From positions 1 through 64,000 of the forward strand of contig JAFRJN010000011.1 of NCBI GenBank assembly GCA_017432225.1: a stretch of DNA of 64,000 nucleotides, written 5' to 3'. The notes beneath the pieces were generated by a model. The model did no database searches. It saw only the letters and a program-made list of their open reading frames with translations, and was not told where the DNA came from. Origin of the DNA: Candidatus Saccharimonadota bacterium (GTDB taxonomy: Bacteria > Patescibacteriota > Saccharimonadia > Saccharimonadales > Saccharimonadaceae). Position 1 is the first letter of the stretch. Each line of letters begins with the position of its first letter. Shown one piece after another: positions 8,933 to 56,789 of the stretch. The position numbers and the translations under genes are program-made.

Positions 8933-9412
8933 TTAGCTGCACCACACTGGGATGAAATAACCGAGCAATGAGATGCCTACGGCGAGTGTCAATGCTACTG
9001 CAATAAATCCAATAAATTTGCCAAGCGTGGAGAAAGTTTCGCCTGGTTTTGCATGAAAGAGCCGCGAAAAACAAGTATAGCTGATTAAAATACCTAACAC
9101 CACACTCCCCCCACCAATCGCCAAATACGCAGCCGGATGGAGAATGGAATCGGATGACGTACTCGTAGTTTGCGCCATAAACTCTCCTCTGCCACCAAAT
9201 CCGCCTTGCATATCAGTTGGCATTTCTGGCATCTCGCAGGTTTCATCGCCTTCCTCGCAGCTCATATCTGGCGGAGTGCCCATTTGCATCTCCGTACCAT
9301 CCGAATTTGTCGGCGGCGTCGGCTGGCTCGTACTCGACGAACCGTCCGTATTCTGTGCCATCGGTCCCATCTGCCGATTTTCACCTTTTGCTATTAAATC
9401 TTCATTATCCAT
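8933..9412 (-). CDS. Small two-TM membrane protein with acidic Met/Pro/Gly-rich N-terminus
   Basis: A 159-residue protein without a recognised family. Residues 1-90 are low-complexity, acidic and rich in Met, Pro, Gly and Ser, with two close cysteines (SCEEGDETCEMPEMP) and a GGFGGRGE run. Residues about 92-113 and 128-155 are hydrophobic membrane helices, giving a hairpin topology with both ends on the same side. An AAAGGAAA site precedes ATG 9412. Its promoter carries the 56-bp element shared with the VTC/DUF4956 operon, and its Gly/Met-rich region recalls the C-terminal tail of the DUF4353 protein in that operon, so co-regulation and a shared envelope role are inferred. Function unknown. 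Confidence 0.7.
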   Translation of the reverse strand: MDNEDLIAKGENRQMGPMAQNTDGSSSTSQPTPPTNSDGTEMQMGTPPDMSCEEGDETCEMPEMPTDMQGGFGGRGEFMAQTTSTSSDSILHPAAYLAIGGGSVVLGILISYTCFSRLFHAKPGETFSTLGKFIGFIAVALTLAVGISLLGYFIPVWCS

Positions 9413-9436
9413 AATTTTCCTTTCTGCTCTTATTGT

Positions 9437-9495
9437 ATTATAGAAACCTTAAAATCAACTTTAAAAAAGTATGTTTTTTGAGAGTTTCCTTAAAA
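9437..9495 (-). promoter_or_regulatory. Shared 56-bp regulatory element, copy A, with promoter of the 8933 gene
   Basis: TATAAT (9437-9442) lacks a recognisable -35. Instead the upstream 9440-9495 segment holds three same-direction boxes on the minus strand: TTTTAAGG (9447-9454), TTTTAAAG (9459-9466) and TTTTAAGG (9488-9495). A near-identical, gap-free copy lies at 56734-56789 with all boxes at the same spacing (48 of 56 positions identical). A promoter without a -35 plus direct repeats covering that region is the usual picture for an activator of the OmpR class. Binding by the regulator encoded at 52880-53536 is inferred. Confidence 0.7.
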
Positions 9496-22307: not shown

Positions 22308-23037
22308 TCATAATCCTTTCCAAAATCGCCGGAATTTTATTGTACTTATCGTTACTAATCCCATGTGCTCCTGGAGTTTTAATCGCCGTAATTCTTGGAT
22401 TTTCTTTGGTCAGCCCCGGAATATTATACGGCGCAATAATTGCATCGGCTGAACCATAAATTATTGTGGTCGGCCTAGTCAGCCGCTTCATAATTTCATA
22501 ATTTTTCTTATTTTGTATGATTAACCTCAATTCATTTTCAAATACATTATCTTCGCGCAGATACGGCTTCCGGGCATAAATCGCTACTTTGAACCCTTCC
22601 ATCCCCACGGAGAATTTTGGTGAATCAAAATCTTTCAAAGTGTAAACCGGCGGCGAAATCAAAATTAATTCTTTCACCATTCTTTTATGCAAATCCGCAA
22701 AACGCGCCGAGATTAAGCACCCCATCGAGTGTCCGACTAGAATGAGAGGCGTTTTGATCTTCAAACTGTTGATAGAATTTAAAAGCGCCTCGGTCTGCTC
22801 GGGGAGATTATATCTTAATTTGTCGGATTTCATACTTTTACCAGAGCCGAGCAAATCAAAACTCACAAAGCGCACATCTTTGAGCGAAGTTGTGCCCTCT
22901 AGATATGCAATAGTTTTGTCAAATCGCGACGAATCATCCGCAATTCCATGGACGAATACTACCGTGAGTCTTGGTGAACCCGACGGACAGAAATCGTGAG
23001 CTTTATGCAGTTTTAAGGTTTTTTCAAAAAAACTCAT
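22294..23037 (-). CDS. Alpha/beta hydrolase
   Basis: A 247-residue alpha/beta-fold hydrolase with the expected order: VFVHGIAD oxyanion region, nucleophile elbow GHSMG, acid in IYGSADAII and His in GAHGIS. There is no signal peptide, so it acts in the cytoplasm. The substrate is unknown; lysophospholipase or esterase activity is typical of this fold. Its ATG overlaps the stop of the DHH gene by one base (TAATG), and its end overlaps cysS by 14 nt. Confidence 0.88.
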
Positions 23038-24047
23038 TAATTTTCTCCATTTTTTAAGGTTTCTAATCTGTTGTCCTCTAACAGCCCCGGCACTATCGAG
23101 ACTAAATCTTTGATAATCTCTTCGTATGTAATATCATAAGTCCTAAACCCGGCTGCATACGGATGTCCGCCTCCGCCAAAATACCCAGCTACTTTGTCGG
23201 CAATTCTCGCATCGCCCATGCAACGGATTTTACCCGTCACCTTACCATCGGGATAAGTTTTGACTGCCACCGCCACCTTTACCCCTTCCACCATCCGGAG
23301 CTCTTCCAAAATCAGCACATTTGGATTATACTCATCGGAGTATTCTTCAATATCTTCCCACGGAATCAAGACCGTCGCAAGCGCTCCATCGAGATAAAAC
23401 TCGCATCGTCGAATCAAATCGGCCTTATATTCAAAAATTCGCGGAGATTTCTTCATATATTCGCGGCGTTTTTCTTCGAGAGTACCGATGTCGGCTCCAC
23501 AGCGGTTTAGTTCCGCCATTATCTCAAAGGTTCGCGCGGTTACAGCCACGCTCGTGAGCCCCAAGGTGTCAGACATAATCGCTTGCGTCAATGCTTCTGC
23601 CGCCGGCTTGTTGATCTCCAGATTGCATTCGCGGGCAATTTCAAAAATCAGCTCCGCGGCCGCCGGGCGCGGCTCGATAATCGCCTCATGTGGGAAGTCT
23701 AAATCGTCTTCCGTCTCGTGGTGGTCGATTACCATGACCGGAGCCGAGTAGAGACGGTTGCGAATCGCCGTGTCTTCCAAAAGTTTAGACAATAAAACTG
23801 TCGCTGCCGTATCTACAATGATATATCCGTCGGCCTTAAAATTAAAATCCATTTCTACTCTCGACCAATCCTCAAAGTAGTGCAAATATTTTGGAATTTC
23901 GATTGGGCAGTACATTGTTACGTCTATATCTTGCAAAAGATAATCCAAAGAAATAGCAGAGCCCAGCGAATCTCCATCAGGATTTTCCGCTTGAATTACG
24001 CAGATGGATTTTTTGTCCTTTAAAAACTCCAAAAACTTATCGTACAT
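23037..24047 (-). CDS. DHH/DHHA1 family phosphoesterase (NrnA-like oligoribonuclease/pAp phosphatase)
   Basis: A 336-residue DHH-type phosphoesterase. N-terminal metal motifs NPDGDSLGS and IDHHETEDD and C-terminal DHHA1 motif GGGGHPYAAGF are intact, matching NrnA-like enzymes that degrade nanoRNAs and pAp, or hydrolyse linear dinucleotides such as pGpG or pApA. A GGDEF protein elsewhere in the window makes pGpG turnover an interesting but unproven role. The ATG at 24047 follows TATAAT (24054-24059) by 6 nt, so it is leaderless, and its promoter is back to back with that of the YqeG gene. Confidence 0.9.
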   Translation of the reverse strand: MYDKFLEFLKDKKSICVIQAENPDGDSLGSAISLDYLLQDIDVTMYCPIEIPKYLHYFEDWSRVEMDFNFKADGYIIVDTAATVLLSKLLEDTAIRNRLYSAPVMVIDHHETEDDLDFPHEAIIEPRPAAAELIFEIARECNLEINKPAAEALTQAIMSDTLGLTSVAVTARTFEIMAELNRCGADIGTLEEKRREYMKKSPRIFEYKADLIRRCEFYLDGALATVLIPWEDIEEYSDEYNPNVLILEELRMVEGVKVAVAVKTYPDGKVTGKIRCMGDARIADKVAGYFGGGGHPYAAGFRTYDITYEEIIKDLVSIVPGLLEDNRLETLKNGEN

Positions 24048-36177: not shown

Positions 36178-36261
36178 AAAAAGTCCTTTTGGTTTAAATT
36201 TGATTAATTAAATAAAGAGTTAGCTAGTTGTTAAACTCCGTCACCAAAACTATTTAAGAAT

Positions 36262-36323
36262 AATTCCTCGGTGGCATGATTAAGTGTATATAATATATAG
36301 CACCGCCACTGTCTTTGGTAACT
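36262..36323 (-). ncRNA. Ribosomal protein L10 leader (autoregulatory mRNA element)
   Basis: The minus-strand leader of rplJ carries AGTTACCAAAGACAGTGGCG (starting at 36323) and, after a loop, TTAATCATGCCACCGAGG (ending near 36265). CGGTG pairs with CACCG and GTGGC with GCCAC. The paired ACCAAAGACAG and CCGAGG boxes match my memory of the L10 leader consensus, where L10 or its complex with L12 binds and represses. A covariance-model search (cmscan with Rfam L10_leader) would decide it. Confidence 0.65.
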
Positions 36324-36329
36324 ATCTCT

Positions 36330-36358
36330 ATTATATCACAAAAAACTTCAAAAATCAA
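36330..36358 (-). promoter_or_regulatory. rplJ-rplL promoter
   Basis: Minus strand TTGATT (36353-36358), 17-nt spacer, extended TGATATAAT (-10 at 36330-36335). The resulting leader is about 150 nt long and holds the L10 element. Confidence 0.75.
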
Positions 36359-48710: not shown

Positions 48711-51700
48711 CTACTCGCTCCGGAGCGCCTCTACTGGGTCTTTCTTTGAGGCAGCTTTGGCCGGGATTAGCCCGCCAATTAGAGTCAAGACTACCGAAAG
48801 CGCAATCAAAATTACCGCCGCATTCGGATAGAGCTGCGCAGAGAGGGGTATATCTCCCGTAAAATGGTGCAATACCACATTAATAAGCGGTATCACTAGA
48901 TACGAGAAAGAAATCCCAAATATTCCCGCGAGCAGCCCCACAATAAAGGTCTCCGCGTTAAAGATATTGGAAATATTTCGCTTCGAAGCGCCAATCGCGC
49001 GCAAAATCCCAATTTCCTTGGTCCTCTCATAGACCGAAATATACGTAATCACCCCAATCATAATCGACGATACCACAAGCGAAATCGAGACAAAGGCAAT
49101 TAGCACATACGATACTGCATCCACAATCACCTTGACCGACCCCATCAAAATCCCCGTCGTGTCAGAATATTCAATCACTTTGCTCTCCTGCCCGTACGAT
49201 TTCATCAGATCATTGTAGTTATCGACGAATTCCATAAACCGGGTTTTGGAGTCAAACGAGTTAAAATAAAATGAAATTTGCAGCGGATCATCCAAATCCT
49301 GGTAGCCCATCAAGGCCAAATTAGTATTTAGAGTCGCTTCAGACTTGTTAAACATCGCCGAAACCACCCTTGCCAGCTCATCTTCAGAAAAATTAAGCCG
49401 AAAGGCGAAGAGCAGCGCCTCCTGGTCCAGAGAAAATGCATTCGCAAAACTACTCGAAAGATACTGCGTCAGCCCGCCCACCGCGGTGAGGATTTCCGAT
49501 TTCATCACTGCCTCGGTAATCGTTACAGAAAAAGTCTCAATGGTTTTTGCAATTGTTTCCTCATCTCCTCCGGCAATCGATAGTCCCACTAGACCTTTAA
49601 ATAGCTCGGCAAATTGCGCATCTGGAATCAGATATTTTTCCGAAAGGTCCGAAAAGTCCTGTTCGTTCATAAAGTCATTCAAAAGCTCTTGGATTTTTTC
49701 TGGTGTCAGCTCATCCGGCGTAATCTCTCCAGAGATAATTTTGCCCTGAATATATAGCTGAAAGCCTTGCACTAGCGCGTCCTTTTTATCAGTTAGAGCC
49801 TGCTTTACCGGCGACACGTCCGCCGTAATATCTTCCGAAATCTCCGTCATGTACTGCGTAGTTTTGGCCGCAACCGCATTTTGGTCAATCGTGGTTTTAA
49901 ATGCTGCAGAAATCTTACTCTCGTCTACCGAGACCAGGTCCGAGAACTCAAAGTTAAAGCTGTTTTTCTTCTCGCCAAATTTCGTATTCGAAAACACATC
50001 AATCGTTGGATTCTCGAGCTGCTTTTTTACAATCTCGGTGTCACGCGATTTTTCAATAATATGTGTGATGAGCGACGGCAAATAAAACACCCCGCTTCCC
50101 GACGAAAATTCCATATCAGAAGTTGCCACCCCCACGATTTTGAGTGACTCGGAATCATTCTCGTAAATATTCTTCATAAACGAAGCATCTTCCGACATAT
50201 CTTCGTACACTTCATATTTCTCGTTATATTTATAAATACTCGCCGGCTCCACTAGCCTCAAATCCAAATTTAGTAGGTCATCGTATGAGAGTTCTAGAGG
50301 CTCATTGTTGATCGAGACATTTTCTCCGCCCATGATACGCGTAATAATATCACTTAACTCTTTCGTGTCATGTAGTCCCAAAGAATAGGTTAGAAAATCC
50401 GAAATCTCACCCTCATCCGACAGGAATATCAACATTTCGTTATATTTTTCGGGGTACCTACCCGCAATGAGCTCAGTATCGTTTTTCATGTTCGAAATAT
50501 CATACTGCCGAAAAACCGAAGTCAGACTAGAGTAAGAATTAAGTAGCGACGTATCACCAAGAATCGTCGAAAAAACCGTACTCGGATTAAGTTTGGCTAT
50601 CTGCCCCGTTGCATCTACCGTGTAAATCAAAGGGTCAATATTGTATTCGTACTCAACCAACCTCACGTCGTCTTTTAGTTCGTGGTTTTGGTAATAAGCC
50701 ATAAAACTTTTTAAGTCATTTTGAGTGACGTTGCCGAGCGTAGAGGTCAGTACCTGATTCTCATGTAGTTTGTCATCATTATATTTTGTGCCAGAGCCAG
50801 TCAAAGAAAGTAGCATCCCCGTTATATTGGTCGATTCCTTTTGCAAGGCCAACGGATATGAGGTCAAAGTGTCCTGCTCGATTTTATCAATGTAGGCTTG
50901 AAACCCAGTCGACACGGCTAGAATCAGCGCAATCCCGATAATCCCAATCGACCCCGCAATTGAGACTAGAACCGTCCGTGCTTTCTTGGTTAGAAGATTA
51001 TTGAGTGACAGTGACAACGCAGTAAAAAACGACATTTTGGTCTTGTGCTGCTTTCTCGCCGAGGCCTCCTCGTCCAGATTCGTCTTACGCTTTCCATCAT
51101 AAATATTTGAATCCGAAGTAATCTCGCCATCTTTCAAAGTAATGATTCTGGTGGCATATTTTCGTGCCAGTTCCGGGTTATGCGTCACCATAATCACGAG
51201 CTTGGTCTTTGAAATATTCTTAAGGATTTTCATAATGGCGAGCGAAGTATCCGAGTCCAACGCCCCGGTCGGCTCATCCGCAAGTAAAATATCCGGATTA
51301 TTTACGAGCGCCCTAGCGATTGCTACCCGCTGCATTTGCCCGCCCGAGAGCTGGGACGGTTTTTTGTCAATGTGGTCCTTGAGCCCCACTTCTTCGAGCG
51401 CTTTTCTTGCTCGCCGCACCGACTCGCGTTTCGAAATCCCCGAGAGCGTCAGCGCCAGCTTCACGTTATTTAGAATTGTCTGATGCGGAATCAAATTATA
51501 GCTCTGAAAGACAAACCCGATCCGGTGGTTGCGGTACGCGTCCCAGTCTTTGTCTTTAAAATCTTTGGTCGAGACCTCGTTGATTTTGAGATCGCCAGCG
51601 CCATAATTATCCAGCCCGCCGATGATGTTGAGAAGTGTCGTCTTCCCCGAGCCCGACGGCCCGAGAATCGCCGCAAATTCCGACTCCCGGAAATTTAAGT

Positions 51701-51773
51701 TTAGAGACTTCAAAACTTTTTGGTGTATACCACCAACTTCGTAGCCCTTCGAAATCCCTTTTAGCTCTAGCAT
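48711..51773 (-). CDS. Fused ABC ATPase-FtsX permease (MacB-like) with very large ectodomain
   Basis: A 1020-residue single-chain exporter half. The N-terminal ATPase (1-225) has Walker A GPSGSGKT, signature LSGGQMQR and Walker B ILLADEPTGALDS, as in LolD/MacB. One membrane helix near 265-290 is followed by an ectodomain of about 570 residues and then three C-terminal FtsX helices (about 880-1010), ending in the typical GGLIPAKAASKKDPVEALRSE. MacB has about 650 residues, so the ectodomain is roughly doubled. Such type VII ABC proteins work as mechanotransmitters, not channels. The ATG at 51773 follows TGCTATAAT (-10 at 51782-51787) by 8 nt, leaderless. Confidence 0.9.
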   Translation of the reverse strand: MLELKGISKGYEVGGIHQKVLKSLNLNFRESEFAAILGPSGSGKTTLLNIIGGLDNYGAGDLKINEVSTKDFKDKDWDAYRNHRIGFVFQSYNLIPHQTILNNVKLALTLSGISKRESVRRARKALEEVGLKDHIDKKPSQLSGGQMQRVAIARALVNNPDILLADEPTGALDSDTSLAIMKILKNISKTKLVIMVTHNPELARKYATRIITLKDGEITSDSNIYDGKRKTNLDEEASARKQHKTKMSFFTALSLSLNNLLTKKARTVLVSIAGSIGIIGIALILAVSTGFQAYIDKIEQDTLTSYPLALQKESTNITGMLLSLTGSGTKYNDDKLHENQVLTSTLGNVTQNDLKSFMAYYQNHELKDDVRLVEYEYNIDPLIYTVDATGQIAKLNPSTVFSTILGDTSLLNSYSSLTSVFRQYDISNMKNDTELIAGRYPEKYNEMLIFLSDEGEISDFLTYSLGLHDTKELSDIITRIMGGENVSINNEPLELSYDDLLNLDLRLVEPASIYKYNEKYEVYEDMSEDASFMKNIYENDSESLKIVGVATSDMEFSSGSGVFYLPSLITHIIEKSRDTEIVKKQLENPTIDVFSNTKFGEKKNSFNFEFSDLVSVDESKISAAFKTTIDQNAVAAKTTQYMTEISEDITADVSPVKQALTDKKDALVQGFQLYIQGKIISGEITPDELTPEKIQELLNDFMNEQDFSDLSEKYLIPDAQFAELFKGLVGLSIAGGDEETIAKTIETFSVTITEAVMKSEILTAVGGLTQYLSSSFANAFSLDQEALLFAFRLNFSEDELARVVSAMFNKSEATLNTNLALMGYQDLDDPLQISFYFNSFDSKTRFMEFVDNYNDLMKSYGQESKVIEYSDTTGILMGSVKVIVDAVSYVLIAFVSISLVVSSIMIGVITYISVYERTKEIGILRAIGASKRNISNIFNAETFIVGLLAGIFGISFSYLVIPLINVVLHHFTGDIPLSAQLYPNAAVILIALSVVLTLIGGLIPAKAASKKDPVEALRSE

Positions 51774-51842: not shown

Positions 51843-52820
51843 TTAGAAATTTAAAGTAAAAGTCGTTTTCCGATTCGACTTCGCACTTAATTTCCAATGG
51901 TTTCTCTCTGCCACGACTTTAGCAATCGCAAGACCCAGCCCCACACCTTCCTGCGTCTTGTCCGCCTGGTAAAACCGGTCAAAAATATGCGGCAGCTTCT
52001 CCGCTTCAATCGTCTTGCCATCATTAGAAACCACTAAAGTGTGGTCATGGAGCTCTACCGAGATATTCTTTTTAGAATATTTAATCGCATTGTCCATCAG
52101 AATCGTCAGAATTTGTTCAAAATCCTCCCGATTAATCTTAACTTTTTTATCTAAAGAAATTTGTTTATTTAGAGCTTTGTCATTTAGTCTCGGTTCAAAG
52201 CCGTCTAGTATCTTCAAAGTTAACTCCTTCAAGTCTACCTCTTCAGACTTCGTATTCGTCACTAGATCCGTCCGCGCGAGATTTAGTAGCTCATTGTTGA
52301 GCTTGGTCAGCTTCGCTGTCTCAAGCTCCACATTCGAAATCCACTTGTTGCCGTGGATGTCCGCTGCCTCAAGATTGGCCGAAATTGCGGCAAGCGGGGT
52401 CTTGATTTCATGCGAAGCATTCGCGATAAAGACCTTTTGCGATTCGTAGGCCTCCTTCACCGGCTTAATCGCCTCTTCCGCAAGAAGACACGATACCAGT
52501 GCTACCGCGATTTCGATCGCCACTCCGCAGCAAATCAAAGTAATTAGTAAATTATTCGCGGCGTTTTTCTTCTCCTCGCGCACCGAGAATAGCACCATCT
52601 CCCGCACCTCGTCTAGATTCTGCTCATTCCCGGACTCGGCGCTATTATTAGCATTCTCCGGTCGTTGATTATACTCCGTTGAATATTCTTGTATATTGAG
52701 AGGCCGATCTTCTGCCGTCTTGGTCGAAATCAAGTAAATCGTCGTAAACACCGTCACGATCACAAAAGTTGTAATCCCAAGGTTGATTAGAATTAAGCGA
52801 TTGCGAAGCTTTCTAAACAT
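51843..52820 (-). CDS. Sensor histidine kinase of the VTC/DUF4956 operon
   Basis: A 325-residue HisKA kinase with two membrane helices (about 8-31 and 89-112) enclosing a short 55-residue sensor loop rich in Asn, Glu and Gln. There is no HAMP domain. Phospho-acceptor block NASHEIKTP (His137), N box LMDNAIKYSK, F box FDRFYQAD and G2 GVGLGLAIAK are intact. It pairs with the regulator upstream, separated by 59 nt that contain GGAGG and a possible internal TATAAT (52837-52842). The small sensor loop suggests it senses within or near the membrane. Confidence 0.93.
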   Translation of the reverse strand: MFRKLRNRLILINLGITTFVIVTVFTTIYLISTKTAEDRPLNIQEYSTEYNQRPENANNSAESGNEQNLDEVREMVLFSVREEKKNAANNLLITLICCGVAIEIAVALVSCLLAEEAIKPVKEAYESQKVFIANASHEIKTPLAAISANLEAADIHGNKWISNVELETAKLTKLNNELLNLARTDLVTNTKSEEVDLKELTLKILDGFEPRLNDKALNKQISLDKKVKINREDFEQILTILMDNAIKYSKKNISVELHDHTLVVSNDGKTIEAEKLPHIFDRFYQADKTQEGVGLGLAIAKVVAERNHWKLSAKSNRKTTFTLNF

Positions 52821-52879: not shown

Positions 52880-53536
52880 TCATCCCACCAATTTATACCC
52901 AAGGCCCCGGATGGTCTTAATCTCGACTTTAGAGCCCAGCGCCTTAATTTTTTTCCGGAGATAGCTGACGTAGACTTCCACATAATTTTCCTCGTGCTCC
53001 GATTCATTGCCCCATACATGGGCGAGGATTTGTTCTTTTGAGACCGCCTGTTCCGGATTTTTCATTAGCATTTGCAAAATATCGCCCTCTTTGTCGGTTA
53101 GAAGCTCGCCATTCAAAGTCCGGTTAGTCAAATCAAATTTAAGATCCTGGAATTCTAATTTTTCCGTTTCTGCGATTGGCGGCCGGCGAGTGAGCGCATT
53201 GATCCTCGCGACGAGCTCTGCCGTCTTAAACGGCTTCGCGAGATAATCATCCGCGCCCTTCTCAAGCCCCTTGATTTTGTCCTCGACTTCGTTCAGAGCC
53301 GAGAGCATAATCACTGGCGTATTTACCCCGCGCTTTCTGATAGTCTCGAGAATTTCGAGGCCAGACAAAGACGGCAACATAATGTCTAACACGATACAAT
53401 CGTAGTTAGGTTTCAGTGCTAACTCTAGTCCTTCTTCGCCATCCGCTGCCCAGTCCACCGCGATTTTATTATTTTTTAAAATGTGGATCACAGCTTCCGC
53501 CAAGAATTCTTCATCTTCGACATAGAGTATTCGCAT
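52880..53536 (-). CDS. OmpR-family response regulator
   Basis: A 218-residue two-domain regulator: receiver with acidic pocket YVEDEE, phospho-acceptor Asp51 in LDIMLP, and KPF near residue 102, then a winged-helix DNA-binding domain (LTDKEGDILQMLM, VEVYVSYLRKKI, TIRGLGYKLVG). Such proteins bind head-to-tail direct repeats. It is encoded in the operon whose promoter carries three TTTTAA(G/A)G direct repeats, so autoregulation and control of the 8933 gene are inferred. AAAGGAGG precedes the ATG; the upstream stop is 2 nt away. Confidence 0.95.
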   Translation of the reverse strand: MRILYVEDEEFLAEAVIHILKNNKIAVDWAADGEEGLELALKPNYDCIVLDIMLPSLSGLEILETIRKRGVNTPVIMLSALNEVEDKIKGLEKGADDYLAKPFKTAELVARINALTRRPPIAETEKLEFQDLKFDLTNRTLNGELLTDKEGDILQMLMKNPEQAVSKEQILAHVWGNESEHEENYVEVYVSYLRKKIKALGSKVEIKTIRGLGYKLVG

Positions 53537-53537
53537 T

Positions 53538-55313
53538 TTACCTCCTTTGCGCCCCGTTAGTTGTCGTCTGGCCGTTAGTTTGAGTATTAGTCTGCCCGCC
53601 GTTCATCATATTTTGCATTCCGCCGCCGCTTCCTACCGTGGTTGTGACGCTAGAAATGGTAAAGGTCTGATACTCTGAGCCGTTCACATAGATAGTGTAG
53701 GTCTCACCATTTTTAAATGCGCTGGTGCCGGCTGCCAGATGGTTAAAGGCCTTCGCCGAAGTGTGTGAAATCACCGTCTCGCCCGCGGAATTTTTGATTT
53801 CAATCTTGGTCCCCGCGGAGAGCGTAGAGGTGAAGTAAACGCTGATATTATATACCGAGGACGATGACCCGAGCGTCTCCGCCATCCCGCTGGCCCCCAC
53901 GGCAATCACCGTGCCGCCATTCATCACGATTCCGCCACCAGAGTCTAGTGCACCATTGCCACTATTGGTCGGGCCATCCACCGTCACCGTGCCACCGTTG
54001 AAGTAAAGATAGCCGTTCGAATCCACGCCGTCACCTGCCGCGTTGACATAAATCTCGCCATCATTAATGATTAGTTCACAGTTCTCGTCCGTGTCAAACG
54101 TATTAGCACCCGCACGGTTAGTCGAAGACGCATCCGCGCCACCACCAGCGTTAATCCCATCATCATTTGCTACAATCGAAATCTTACCGGCATTAATAGA
54201 AATCTTTTGCGCTTCTAGGCCCTCGTAGGATTTCGTAATGTTGATGGTTCCGCCATCCACAATCAGCCGAGCGTCCGCATGTACACCATCATCGCCCGAG
54301 GAAATATTAATCACTCCATCGATAATCCCGATATAATTATTTGAGTGAATCGCATCGTCCGTCGAGACAATATTATATTCACCGTTATATATCATAATGC
54401 TATTGGTCGCCTTGATGCCCTTACCGCTAGAAGTAATATTAAAGGTCCCGTTCTCAATCAAGATAAATCCTTTGGTCGTGTCGGTCTCGTTGGTCGACTT
54501 AATCGCATCCGCCGTCGATTTGATGGTAAAATCACCGTCCGTGATATGAACCGAATCCTTACCCCGAATTGCGTCATCCACCGCGGTGATATTGTAGGTT
54601 CCCGAGCGGAAAGTCAAATCGTCTTTTGACACAATCCCGTCACCATAATTGCCCTTAATCGTAAGCGACCCCGTGCCGGTGAAACTTAAGTCCGACTTTG
54701 AATAGATCACTCCATCTACATCTTCGTCTAGGTCCGTGCTATATTTCGAGCCATCTTCTAGATAGTTTTCACCAACAAGCTCAATCACGATGTCGTCACC
54801 AGAATAACAAGCAATCGCCGGACCAGACGAATTCTTGATCGTCACACCGTTTAGTACTATTCTCACCACCGCTTCTGCGTCCGCCTTGACGATAATTGAG
54901 CCATCCTCGAGCGTCCCGGTGAAGTAATACGTCCCCGATTCCGTGACGGTATAAGTCTCAGAAAGTTCAATATTATATGACGGATACCGCTCCCAGTTGA
55001 TTTTGAGATCGCCATTATCGATATTAATAGTTCCAGAAATGTTCGAAGCGTTGTCGCCAGTGTGGTTATAGTTGAGATTTACCGCCACGGCGAGCCCCAC
55101 CATCAGGCCGATTAATACCACTGCCGAGGCCACCCACTTCCAGTCAAAGGCAAAGGGCTTTTTGATACCGTCTGTGCCCGCGCTAGCGCTCATGCCCGTA
55201 CTAGCGCCGGCGCCTGCAGCCGAGCCAGTCTCGACCGCGAGCCCCGCCCCCTGAGCCCCCGTGGGAGCACCCCCCTCGCTCCCGTTCCAGAAATTCTTTT
55301 TTGTATCCGTCAT
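53538..55313 (-). CDS. DUF4353 carbohydrate-binding beta-helix protein, membrane anchored
   Basis: A 591-residue surface protein. Residues 1-50 are Gly/Ala/Thr low-complexity and lie inside; one membrane helix (about 58-80) precedes a long right-handed beta-helix (about 95-500) built from repeats with D-DG, DDAI and GDDGVHAD turns that are likely Ca-binding. The family (Cthe_2159-like, DUF4353) includes polysaccharide-binding proteins. The last 35 residues are Gly/Met/Asn/Gln-rich. AAAGGAGGTG precedes the ATG. It sits between the DUF4956 gene (10 nt) and the response regulator (1 nt), so its amount is tied to the two-component system. Confidence 0.88.
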   Translation of the reverse strand: MTDTKKNFWNGSEGGAPTGAQGAGLAVETGSAAGAGASTGMSASAGTDGIKKPFAFDWKWVASAVVLIGLMVGLAVAVNLNYNHTGDNASNISGTINIDNGDLKINWERYPSYNIELSETYTVTESGTYYFTGTLEDGSIIVKADAEAVVRIVLNGVTIKNSSGPAIACYSGDDIVIELVGENYLEDGSKYSTDLDEDVDGVIYSKSDLSFTGTGSLTIKGNYGDGIVSKDDLTFRSGTYNITAVDDAIRGKDSVHITDGDFTIKSTADAIKSTNETDTTKGFILIENGTFNITSSGKGIKATNSIMIYNGEYNIVSTDDAIHSNNYIGIIDGVINISSGDDGVHADARLIVDGGTINITKSYEGLEAQKISINAGKISIVANDDGINAGGGADASSTNRAGANTFDTDENCELIINDGEIYVNAAGDGVDSNGYLYFNGGTVTVDGPTNSGNGALDSGGGIVMNGGTVIAVGASGMAETLGSSSSVYNISVYFTSTLSAGTKIEIKNSAGETVISHTSAKAFNHLAAGTSAFKNGETYTIYVNGSEYQTFTISSVTTTVGSGGGMQNMMNGGQTNTQTNGQTTTNGAQRR

Positions 55314-55323
55314 AACACCTCCT

Positions 55324-55998
55324 TTAGAGTTCTTCTTCTTGAATAGGCTGGCTGAGCGACACTTTGAGGTTGCAGTTCTTCACTCGGATTTCATCCAGAA
55401 GTTCCTTTTCCTTCGCCCCAGTCTTCAGCCTTACATTGTAGGTTAAATCGTACAGACTTCCCATATTTACAGTCTTGGCAGTCATCAGATCCACGCGTGA
55501 GAAATATTTCGAAAAGATCTCGTCAAACGCACCGGTATAGTCCATATCTTCCGGCACCACAATCTTTAGTACCTTTTCCTTGCGGTTTGGCTCAAGAATT
55601 GGCGTCAGAGCAAAGAACGCAATCGCTACCACCCCGATCGCCGTCATTACCGCACCAAATAGTACGTGCCCCATCCCACAGGAAAGCCCAATCATCATCG
55701 CAAAGAACACGGAAAGTAAGTTCCTTGCACTTCCCCGGATTGAGCGGAAGCGAATCAGTGAGAACGCACCGAGAATCGCGATCGAAGTCCCGAGATTGCC
55801 ATTGATCATCATCATTACTGCCATCACGAGAAGCGGCAAGACCGTTAGCGTTACCAGAAAACCTTTAGTAGTATTTCTAATAGTTAGTTTATGCGCGATT
55901 GCAAGTACCAGCCCCATCAGTAGCGCCGCGCCAGCCGCGATTAAGGCAGTGGATACTTCCATTCCTGCCGTGCTAGTGTCAAATATACTATTAAACAT
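55324..55998 (-). CDS. DUF4956 membrane protein
   Basis: A 224-residue protein with about four membrane helices and a C-terminal ferredoxin-like cytoplasmic domain. The family block GNLGTSIAILGAFSLIRFRS followed by GSARNLLSVFFAMMIGLSCGMG is clear. DUF4956 proteins are repeatedly found next to VTC-domain proteins and are thought to form a membrane complex with them, but no activity is established. It overlaps the VTC gene by 8 nt; GAAAGGAG precedes its ATG. Confidence 0.9.
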   Translation of the reverse strand: MFNSIFDTSTAGMEVSTALIAAGAALLMGLVLAIAHKLTIRNTTKGFLVTLTVLPLLVMAVMMMINGNLGTSIAILGAFSLIRFRSIRGSARNLLSVFFAMMIGLSCGMGHVLFGAVMTAIGVVAIAFFALTPILEPNRKEKVLKIVVPEDMDYTGAFDEIFSKYFSRVDLMTAKTVNMGSLYDLTYNVRLKTGAKEKELLDEIRVKNCNLKVSLSQPIQEEEL

Positions 55999-56719
55999 TT
56001 TTTTCTCCTTTCTTGATCAATTCGTATATTTTACCAATTTTCGAAAACCGTGACGGGTAAGCTTTTTCTTTTGACAAAAGCTGTACCAGCCACAGTGGCA
56101 TTACCTCATGCGCTTTGATTTCCATAATGATATTCTGGTCGGCCTTGAAACACTTTTTGTCACTCGCCTTTTTCACAAAAGAGAGGTCAGTATCTCGAAA
56201 ACTCAAATTCTCATCGAAAGTAATCCTTAGCCCATTTTCACCAAGATAACTTTCTCGATCATAATAAACCAGAATCCGCGGCTTGAGGTCAAAATGCGAA
56301 ATCAAATAATCCACTTCCTTCGCAATCTGGATGTCATCGTTAGTTTCGATTAACTCCGAGGCTAGCTCCACCGCCGTTTTCTCGCCTGCCACCAATTTTT
56401 CAAAATCTTTGTGCGTGATGAGGAAACGTCGCTTGTATCCCACGCGGTATTCGGCTTGTTTCATCTTGGTTTTGATTTCAAGGAATACTTTGTCGTAGCC
56501 CTCGTAACTTCTAGCCCGCAGTTTTTCCTTGAAATCTGGATTTTCAATTGATTTGATGATCAGGTCAAAATTATCCGTGTCAAAATACACGTTCATGACC
56601 CCAGATTTGAAATACCCGTCCTTTTCCATGTTCTTCTGGACCTCTTTTAGAATCTCCTTTTTCTGCTTCGCGGAGATTAGATATTTCTTCTCGATCCGAT
56701 CAAATATTTTGGTATCCAT
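55991..56719 (-). CDS. VTC-domain (CYTH-like) polyphosphate polymerase-family protein
   Basis: A 242-residue VTC-domain protein, the soluble fold that makes polyphosphate from ATP in yeast Vtc4. Tunnel-lining motifs are present: RIEKKYLIS, VYFDTDNFDL, KLRARSYEGYDKVFLEIKTK, GYKRRF, YYDRESY, LRITFDENL, IIMEIKAH and a C-terminal SRFSKIGK. Whether bacterial members polymerise phosphate is not established here. The start is ATG 56719, 6 nt after TATAAT (56726-56731); the upstream TTG in frame lies in the -10 box. It is the first gene of the operon and leaderless, and its promoter contains element B. Confidence 0.9.
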   Translation of the reverse strand: MDTKIFDRIEKKYLISAKQKKEILKEVQKNMEKDGYFKSGVMNVYFDTDNFDLIIKSIENPDFKEKLRARSYEGYDKVFLEIKTKMKQAEYRVGYKRRFLITHKDFEKLVAGEKTAVELASELIETNDDIQIAKEVDYLISHFDLKPRILVYYDRESYLGENGLRITFDENLSFRDTDLSFVKKASDKKCFKADQNIIMEIKAHEVMPLWLVQLLSKEKAYPSRFSKIGKIYELIKKGEKNV

Positions 56720-56725
56720 AATCAC

Positions 56726-56789
56726 ATTATACAATAGAAACCTTAAAAAATACTTTAAAAAAGTATGCTAATTTTGAGTTTCCTTAAAA
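56726..56789 (-). promoter_or_regulatory. Shared 56-bp regulatory element, copy B, with promoter of the VTC operon
   Basis: TATAAT (56726-56731) has no recognisable -35. Boxes on the minus strand are TTTTAAGG (56741-56748), TTTTAAAG (56753-56760) and TTTTAAGG (56782-56789), at the same offsets as in copy A (9440-9495). The centre ATACTTT-AAA-AAAGTAT is a perfect 7-bp palindrome here. The element overlaps the last codons of the upstream hydrolase gene. Likely operator of the operon's own OmpR-type regulator (inference). Confidence 0.7.

Follow-up and report, generated by a model that had tools for sequence, protein, structure and literature searches.

A conserved promoter element of the VTC operon and an orphan membrane-protein gene as predicted operator of the sole OmpR-type regulator in a Saccharibacteria genome

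The window, that is the whole 64,000-nucleotide stretch of DNA analyzed here, carries a nearly contiguous minus-strand operon encoding, in the order of transcription, a VTC-domain protein, a DUF4956 membrane protein, a Cthe_2159 protein, a response regulator, a sensor histidine kinase and a MacB-like transporter, as well as a separate gene for an orphan membrane protein:

8933 to 9412, minus strand: orphan 159-aa membrane protein with an acidic, Met/Pro-rich N-terminal part
48711 to 51773, minus strand: MacB-like ABC transporter, ATPase fused to FtsX permease
51843 to 52820, minus strand: sensor histidine kinase
52880 to 53536, minus strand: OmpR/PhoB-type response regulator (PF00072 and PF00486), recognition helix YVEVYVSYLRKKI
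53538 to 55313, minus strand: Cthe_2159 carbohydrate-binding surface protein (PF14262)
55324 to 55998, minus strand: DUF4956 membrane protein
55991 to 56719, minus strand: VTC-domain protein (PF09359), first gene of the operon

A genus-wide search found exactly one PF00486 (OmpR-type) protein in the genome of the window, namely the operon regulator at 52880-53536, which the first-pass annotation had already recognized as OmpR-class; relatives usually encode one or none per genome. Those relatives with a VTC gene that carry a name belong to Candidatus Saccharibacteria, and most come from ruminant guts; Candidatus Nanosyncoccus alces is among them. The orphan protein matched no Pfam or NCBIfam family, no homology to the Cthe_2159 protein of the operon was found, and its orthologues occur in 12 of the 174 genomes of the genus, adjoining ung in at least four of them (G000, G116, G175 and G181, in which the orphan gene comes after ung).

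Upstream of the VTC gene (ATG at 56719) and of the orphan gene (ATG at 9412), directly above each of them and on the minus strand, lie the following promoter features:

9432 to 9437, minus strand: TACAAT, the orphan -10 hexamer that lies in register with the VTC one
9440 to 9447, minus strand: proximal box TTTTAAGG, orphan promoter
9452 to 9459, minus strand: distal core box TTTTAAAG, orphan promoter
9481 to 9488, minus strand: upstream box TTTTAAGG, orphan promoter, immediately after the ung stop codon
56726 to 56731, minus strand: TATAAT, VTC -10 hexamer, separated from the ATG by 6 nt
56734 to 56741, minus strand: proximal box TTTTAAGG, VTC promoter, shared by the VTC promoters of relatives that have the regulator, where the -10 usually follows 8-10 bp later
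56746 to 56753, minus strand: distal core box TTTTAAAG, VTC promoter; when read with period 11, the 7-mer TTTAAAG begins at 56752
56775 to 56782, minus strand: upstream (third) box TTTTAAGG, VTC promoter, within the last codons of a Beta-lactamase2-domain gene and not conserved in relatives

Pairwise alignment within the window reproduced the previously reported ungapped identity of 9440-9495 and 56734-56789 at 48 of 56 positions, a level above the best window match obtained with 200 shuffled versions of the 56-mer (35/56). Likewise, the three same-direction TTTTAA(G/A)G boxes recur with identical intervals of 29 and 12 bp, starting on the minus strand at 9488, 9459 and 9447 at the orphan locus and at 56782, 56753 and 56741 at the VTC locus. 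Contrary to what had been proposed, the identity is not confined to the boxes, CATAC and GAAACTC also being identical between the copies. Searching the whole genome (620,715 bases in 18 contigs, 92% complete) yielded two full copies of the element, at these loci only and not at many unrelated places, so that we rejected a mobile or dispersed repeat. Positions 23011-23065 of the window hold a third site, whose two TTTTAAGG (TTTTAAGGTTT) boxes keep the outer spacing of 41 bp; it spans the junction of two minus-strand genes and has no -10, and we judged it to be due to chance because no plus-strand gene lies downstream and its E-value with the profile described below is 2.2.

The proposal that each copy precedes a TATAAT lacking a -35 is firm for the VTC promoter only, where the hexamer lies at 56726-56731 and a promoter scan gave no sigma-70 match with a -35. 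At the orphan locus the hexamer in the same register reads TACAAT, a second -10 candidate (TATAAT, 9437-9442) lies 5 bp closer to the boxes, and a TTTAAA-17-TATAAT sigma-70 match (10/12) is present; the orphan promoter could use the latter instead, which counts against an operator there. The distance of only 6 nt between -10 and ATG makes a leaderless VTC mRNA probable (we infer the start site). An RNA leader element was rejected on this ground and because Rfam gave no match at either locus. Elsewhere in the window, Rfam identified an L10 leader (ribosomal protein autoregulation) at 36204-36336.

For comparison we took, from the 174 genomes of the genus (111 with a VTC match, 110 with a close regulator match), the sequences preceding 113 VTC genes and the majority of those regulator genes that reach 62% identity. 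A common design, TTTTAAG-N4-TTTTAAG-N10-TATAAT, emerged in the VTC and regulator promoters, with a box period of 11 (sometimes 10 or 12) bp and a gap to the -10 of usually 8-10 bp, mostly 10. It characterizes the VTC promoters of genomes with a close regulator (61 compared), 11 of 12 orphan promoters and, with 11 or more of 14 box positions matched, 61 of 70 promoters of the regulator gene itself. The half-sites lie head to tail on one DNA face, with a period of about 10-11 bp, and abut the -10, the arrangement of an OmpR/PhoB-family operator, and a regulator with receiver and winged-helix domains is encoded in the genome. The presence of boxes at orthologous VTC, regulator and orphan promoters supports the earlier suggestion of an OmpR-class operator common to the VTC operon and the orphan gene. 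The conserved unit, however, is not the three-box array originally described; it comprises two boxes and the -10, the upstream box being found in this genome only.

This difference bears on the origin of the 56-bp near-identity. Orphan and VTC promoters agree at 17-28 of 56 positions in the nine relatives compared, whereas the figure for this genome, in the same register, is 47 of 56; the 56-bp identity and the third box are private to this genome. The best explanation of the long identity is therefore that one promoter was recently copied to the place of the other, rather than that a three-box operator was conserved. In relatives the orphan boxes directly follow the ung stop codon, and the additional 29 bp or so between them here suggest that the orphan locus received the copy. 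The privacy of the identity would also suit a mere recent DNA duplication devoid of regulatory meaning. Such an explanation is scarcely credible for the element as a whole, however, as the core boxes and -10 are kept at both loci in relatives with no sign of recent copying; copying accounts for the length of the identity, not for its core.

In five genomes (G000, G245, G272, G295 and G307) the regulator gene lies inside the VTC operon, where it needs no box of its own, and the sequence just upstream of it reaches no more than 7-10 of 14. These genomes are a natural control favoring the predicted operator function, whereas four further regulator promoters that also score low count against it. 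The 14-position score was chosen after the first upstream sequences had been seen, and these counts hence describe a pattern and are not a test of an advance prediction; the profile search is more independent.

Boxes at VTC promoters are far less common where the genome has no OmpR-type protein. VTC promoters scoring at least 17 of 20 for boxes and -10 amount to 55 of 61 in genomes with a close regulator, to 17 of 26 with a diverged regulator and to 7 of 26 with no OmpR-type protein (Fisher p 9e-9, a value that ignores kinship). After correction on a tree of 45 VTC proteins, from which only well-supported independent pairs were taken, about three of five pairs were for the association, none against and two tied (p 0.25), a consistent direction with too few independent pairs for significance. 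Good boxes persist in a few genomes without PF00486, the most notable being G264, whose completeness is estimated at 100%; this counts against the association. The diverged regulator's own promoters (L217-L221) display TTTTCAG-type repeats, which suggests that operator and diverged regulator may have changed together.

Using a sequence profile built from 49 promoters, with this genome excluded, we found five sites in this genome at E < 0.002: one each upstream of the VTC gene, the orphan gene and trxA-trxB (TTTTAAGGAAATTTTAAG-N10-TACAAT), and two in tandem upstream of a small multidrug-export gene, whose relatives match PF06695. Instead of the two-locus regulon first envisaged, at least four or five transcription units are thus predicted, trxA-trxB and the small multidrug-export gene being predicted members besides the VTC operon and the orphan gene. 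A membrane-protein/htrA operon probably also belongs here: a site precedes the membrane-protein gene, which is followed by that of an HtrA-type protease, and its weakness (E 0.017) counts against inclusion. Against trxA-trxB speaks that no counterpart of its site was found in those relatives in which we could locate trxA. Across the genus, sites also precede genes for FKBP isomerase, HtrA, FtsX/MacB and ABC-ATPases, and further ones precede DUF4956, small multidrug-export genes and GTPPEM-type membrane proteins.

Two side observations were made at these targets. Between the tandem sites before the small multidrug-export gene (L302/L304, G000:C10:12919-13087) there is a 13-codon ORF, and a GC-rich hairpin followed by T residues lies upstream of the gene; transcription from the second tandem site could yield a very short RNA of a kind that recalls csRNAs. 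A GTPPEMP-like repeat motif, shared with the N-terminal part of the orphan protein, occurs in the single-membrane-span proteins L392, L394 and L400, which have the same box upstream.

As TTTTAA is common in AT-rich DNA and the box also occurs at some VTC promoters where the genome lacks an OmpR-type protein, the repeat might be a general promoter element of an AT-rich lineage (-35 or UP-like) unrelated to the regulator. We regard this as highly improbable, given that only a handful of genome sites reach the profile, that strong genus sites concentrate on regulator, VTC and envelope genes, and that correctly phased boxes are more frequent than in shuffled sequences. In the genus scan (E ≤ 0.001), 6 of 51 genomes lacking PF00486 have a site, one each, compared with four sites in this genome, a comparison that is not free of bias because the profile was trained on regulator-bearing relatives.

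Taken together, these results make it highly probable that the response regulator of the VTC operon uses the element as its operator. We infer the binding, activation, stimulus, start sites and sign of regulation in the following model from sequence. The histidine kinase of the operon, once stimulated, would phosphorylate the regulator, which would bind head to tail at two TTTTAAG half-sites 11 bp apart, ending 10 bp before the -10, replace the -35 and recruit sigma-70 RNA polymerase. Since the operon under control itself contains the genes for regulator and kinase, the circuit would be self-reinforcing. Its targets would be mostly envelope genes (the VTC/DUF4956/Cthe_2159/MacB operon and the orphan gene), together with trxA-trxB, the small multidrug-export gene and probably the membrane-protein/htrA operon. 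Binding immediately upstream of a -10 can also block polymerase, and the regulator could accordingly act as a repressor or dual regulator. We consider this unlikely, because the boxes occupy the place of the -35, which the VTC promoter lacks, and because streptococcal CiaR activates through the same arrangement (PMC3091779).

Overall, a predicted regulatory scheme can be set down here for Saccharibacteria: a single regulator, a single operator and the envelope genes they would control. These organisms have reduced genomes, and their cultured members live on other bacteria; to our knowledge almost nothing is known of their gene regulation, and no relevant paper on Saccharibacteria regulators was found in the collection searched. 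Where a genome encodes one OmpR-type protein, as is usual, the entire regulon would be open to test by one knockout or binding assay. The VTC/DUF4956/Cthe_2159 operon, so far unexplained, gains a testable context, that of an envelope response rather than housekeeping, and the lineage offers a case for following regulator loss and operator decay across many species.

Among known systems, PmrA/BasR-type OmpR regulators use direct half-sites containing TTAAG, and BasR is among the solved relatives of the window regulator, which nevertheless reaches only 150.9 of 330 bits, below the NCBIfam PmrA cut-off. The CiaRH system of streptococci is similar in several respects. CiaR binds TTTAAG-N5-TTTAAG 10 bp before the -10 and has the recognition helix VVEVYVSKVRKKL (PMC3091779); htrA is a CiaR target according to a title cited in PMC4863584. 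The likeness comprises a TTTAAG direct repeat with an 11-bp period located 10 bp from TATAAT (genus consensus TTTTAAGnTTTnTTTAAG, N10, TATAAT; distal box TTTAAAG in the window copies) and HtrA genes downstream of a box here and in one relative. The recognition helices YVEVYVSYLRKKI and VVEVYVSKVRKKL are similar, with 9 of 13 residues identical in a pairwise comparison, a resemblance that other OmpR-type regulators may share. The system here differs in the spacing of 10-12 bp, in the VTC/DUF4956/Cthe_2159/MacB operon being the main target, and in the phylum. We did not classify the regulator as a CiaR orthologue because no NCBIfam equivalog reached its cut-off, the 25 models listed including none for CiaR; it is best described as a regulator predicted to work like CiaR without being CiaR. 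Homologous VTC genes are also found in Firmicutes VTC/DUF4956 operons, where about 10 of 37 VTC upstream regions have a similar box, above shuffled expectation (L262, L267, L280, L281, L289, L290, L293, L298, L299 and L301), although most lack it and an adjacent regulator of this helix type was noted only in L289. As a tentative proposal, which we hold to be possible rather than probable, a Saccharibacteria lineage with a single OmpR-type regulator may run a CiaR-like, self-activating envelope-stress regulon comprising VTC/DUF4956/Cthe_2159/MacB, HtrA, FKBP isomerase and multidrug export, the operon and its box sharing a cross-phylum history with Firmicutes.
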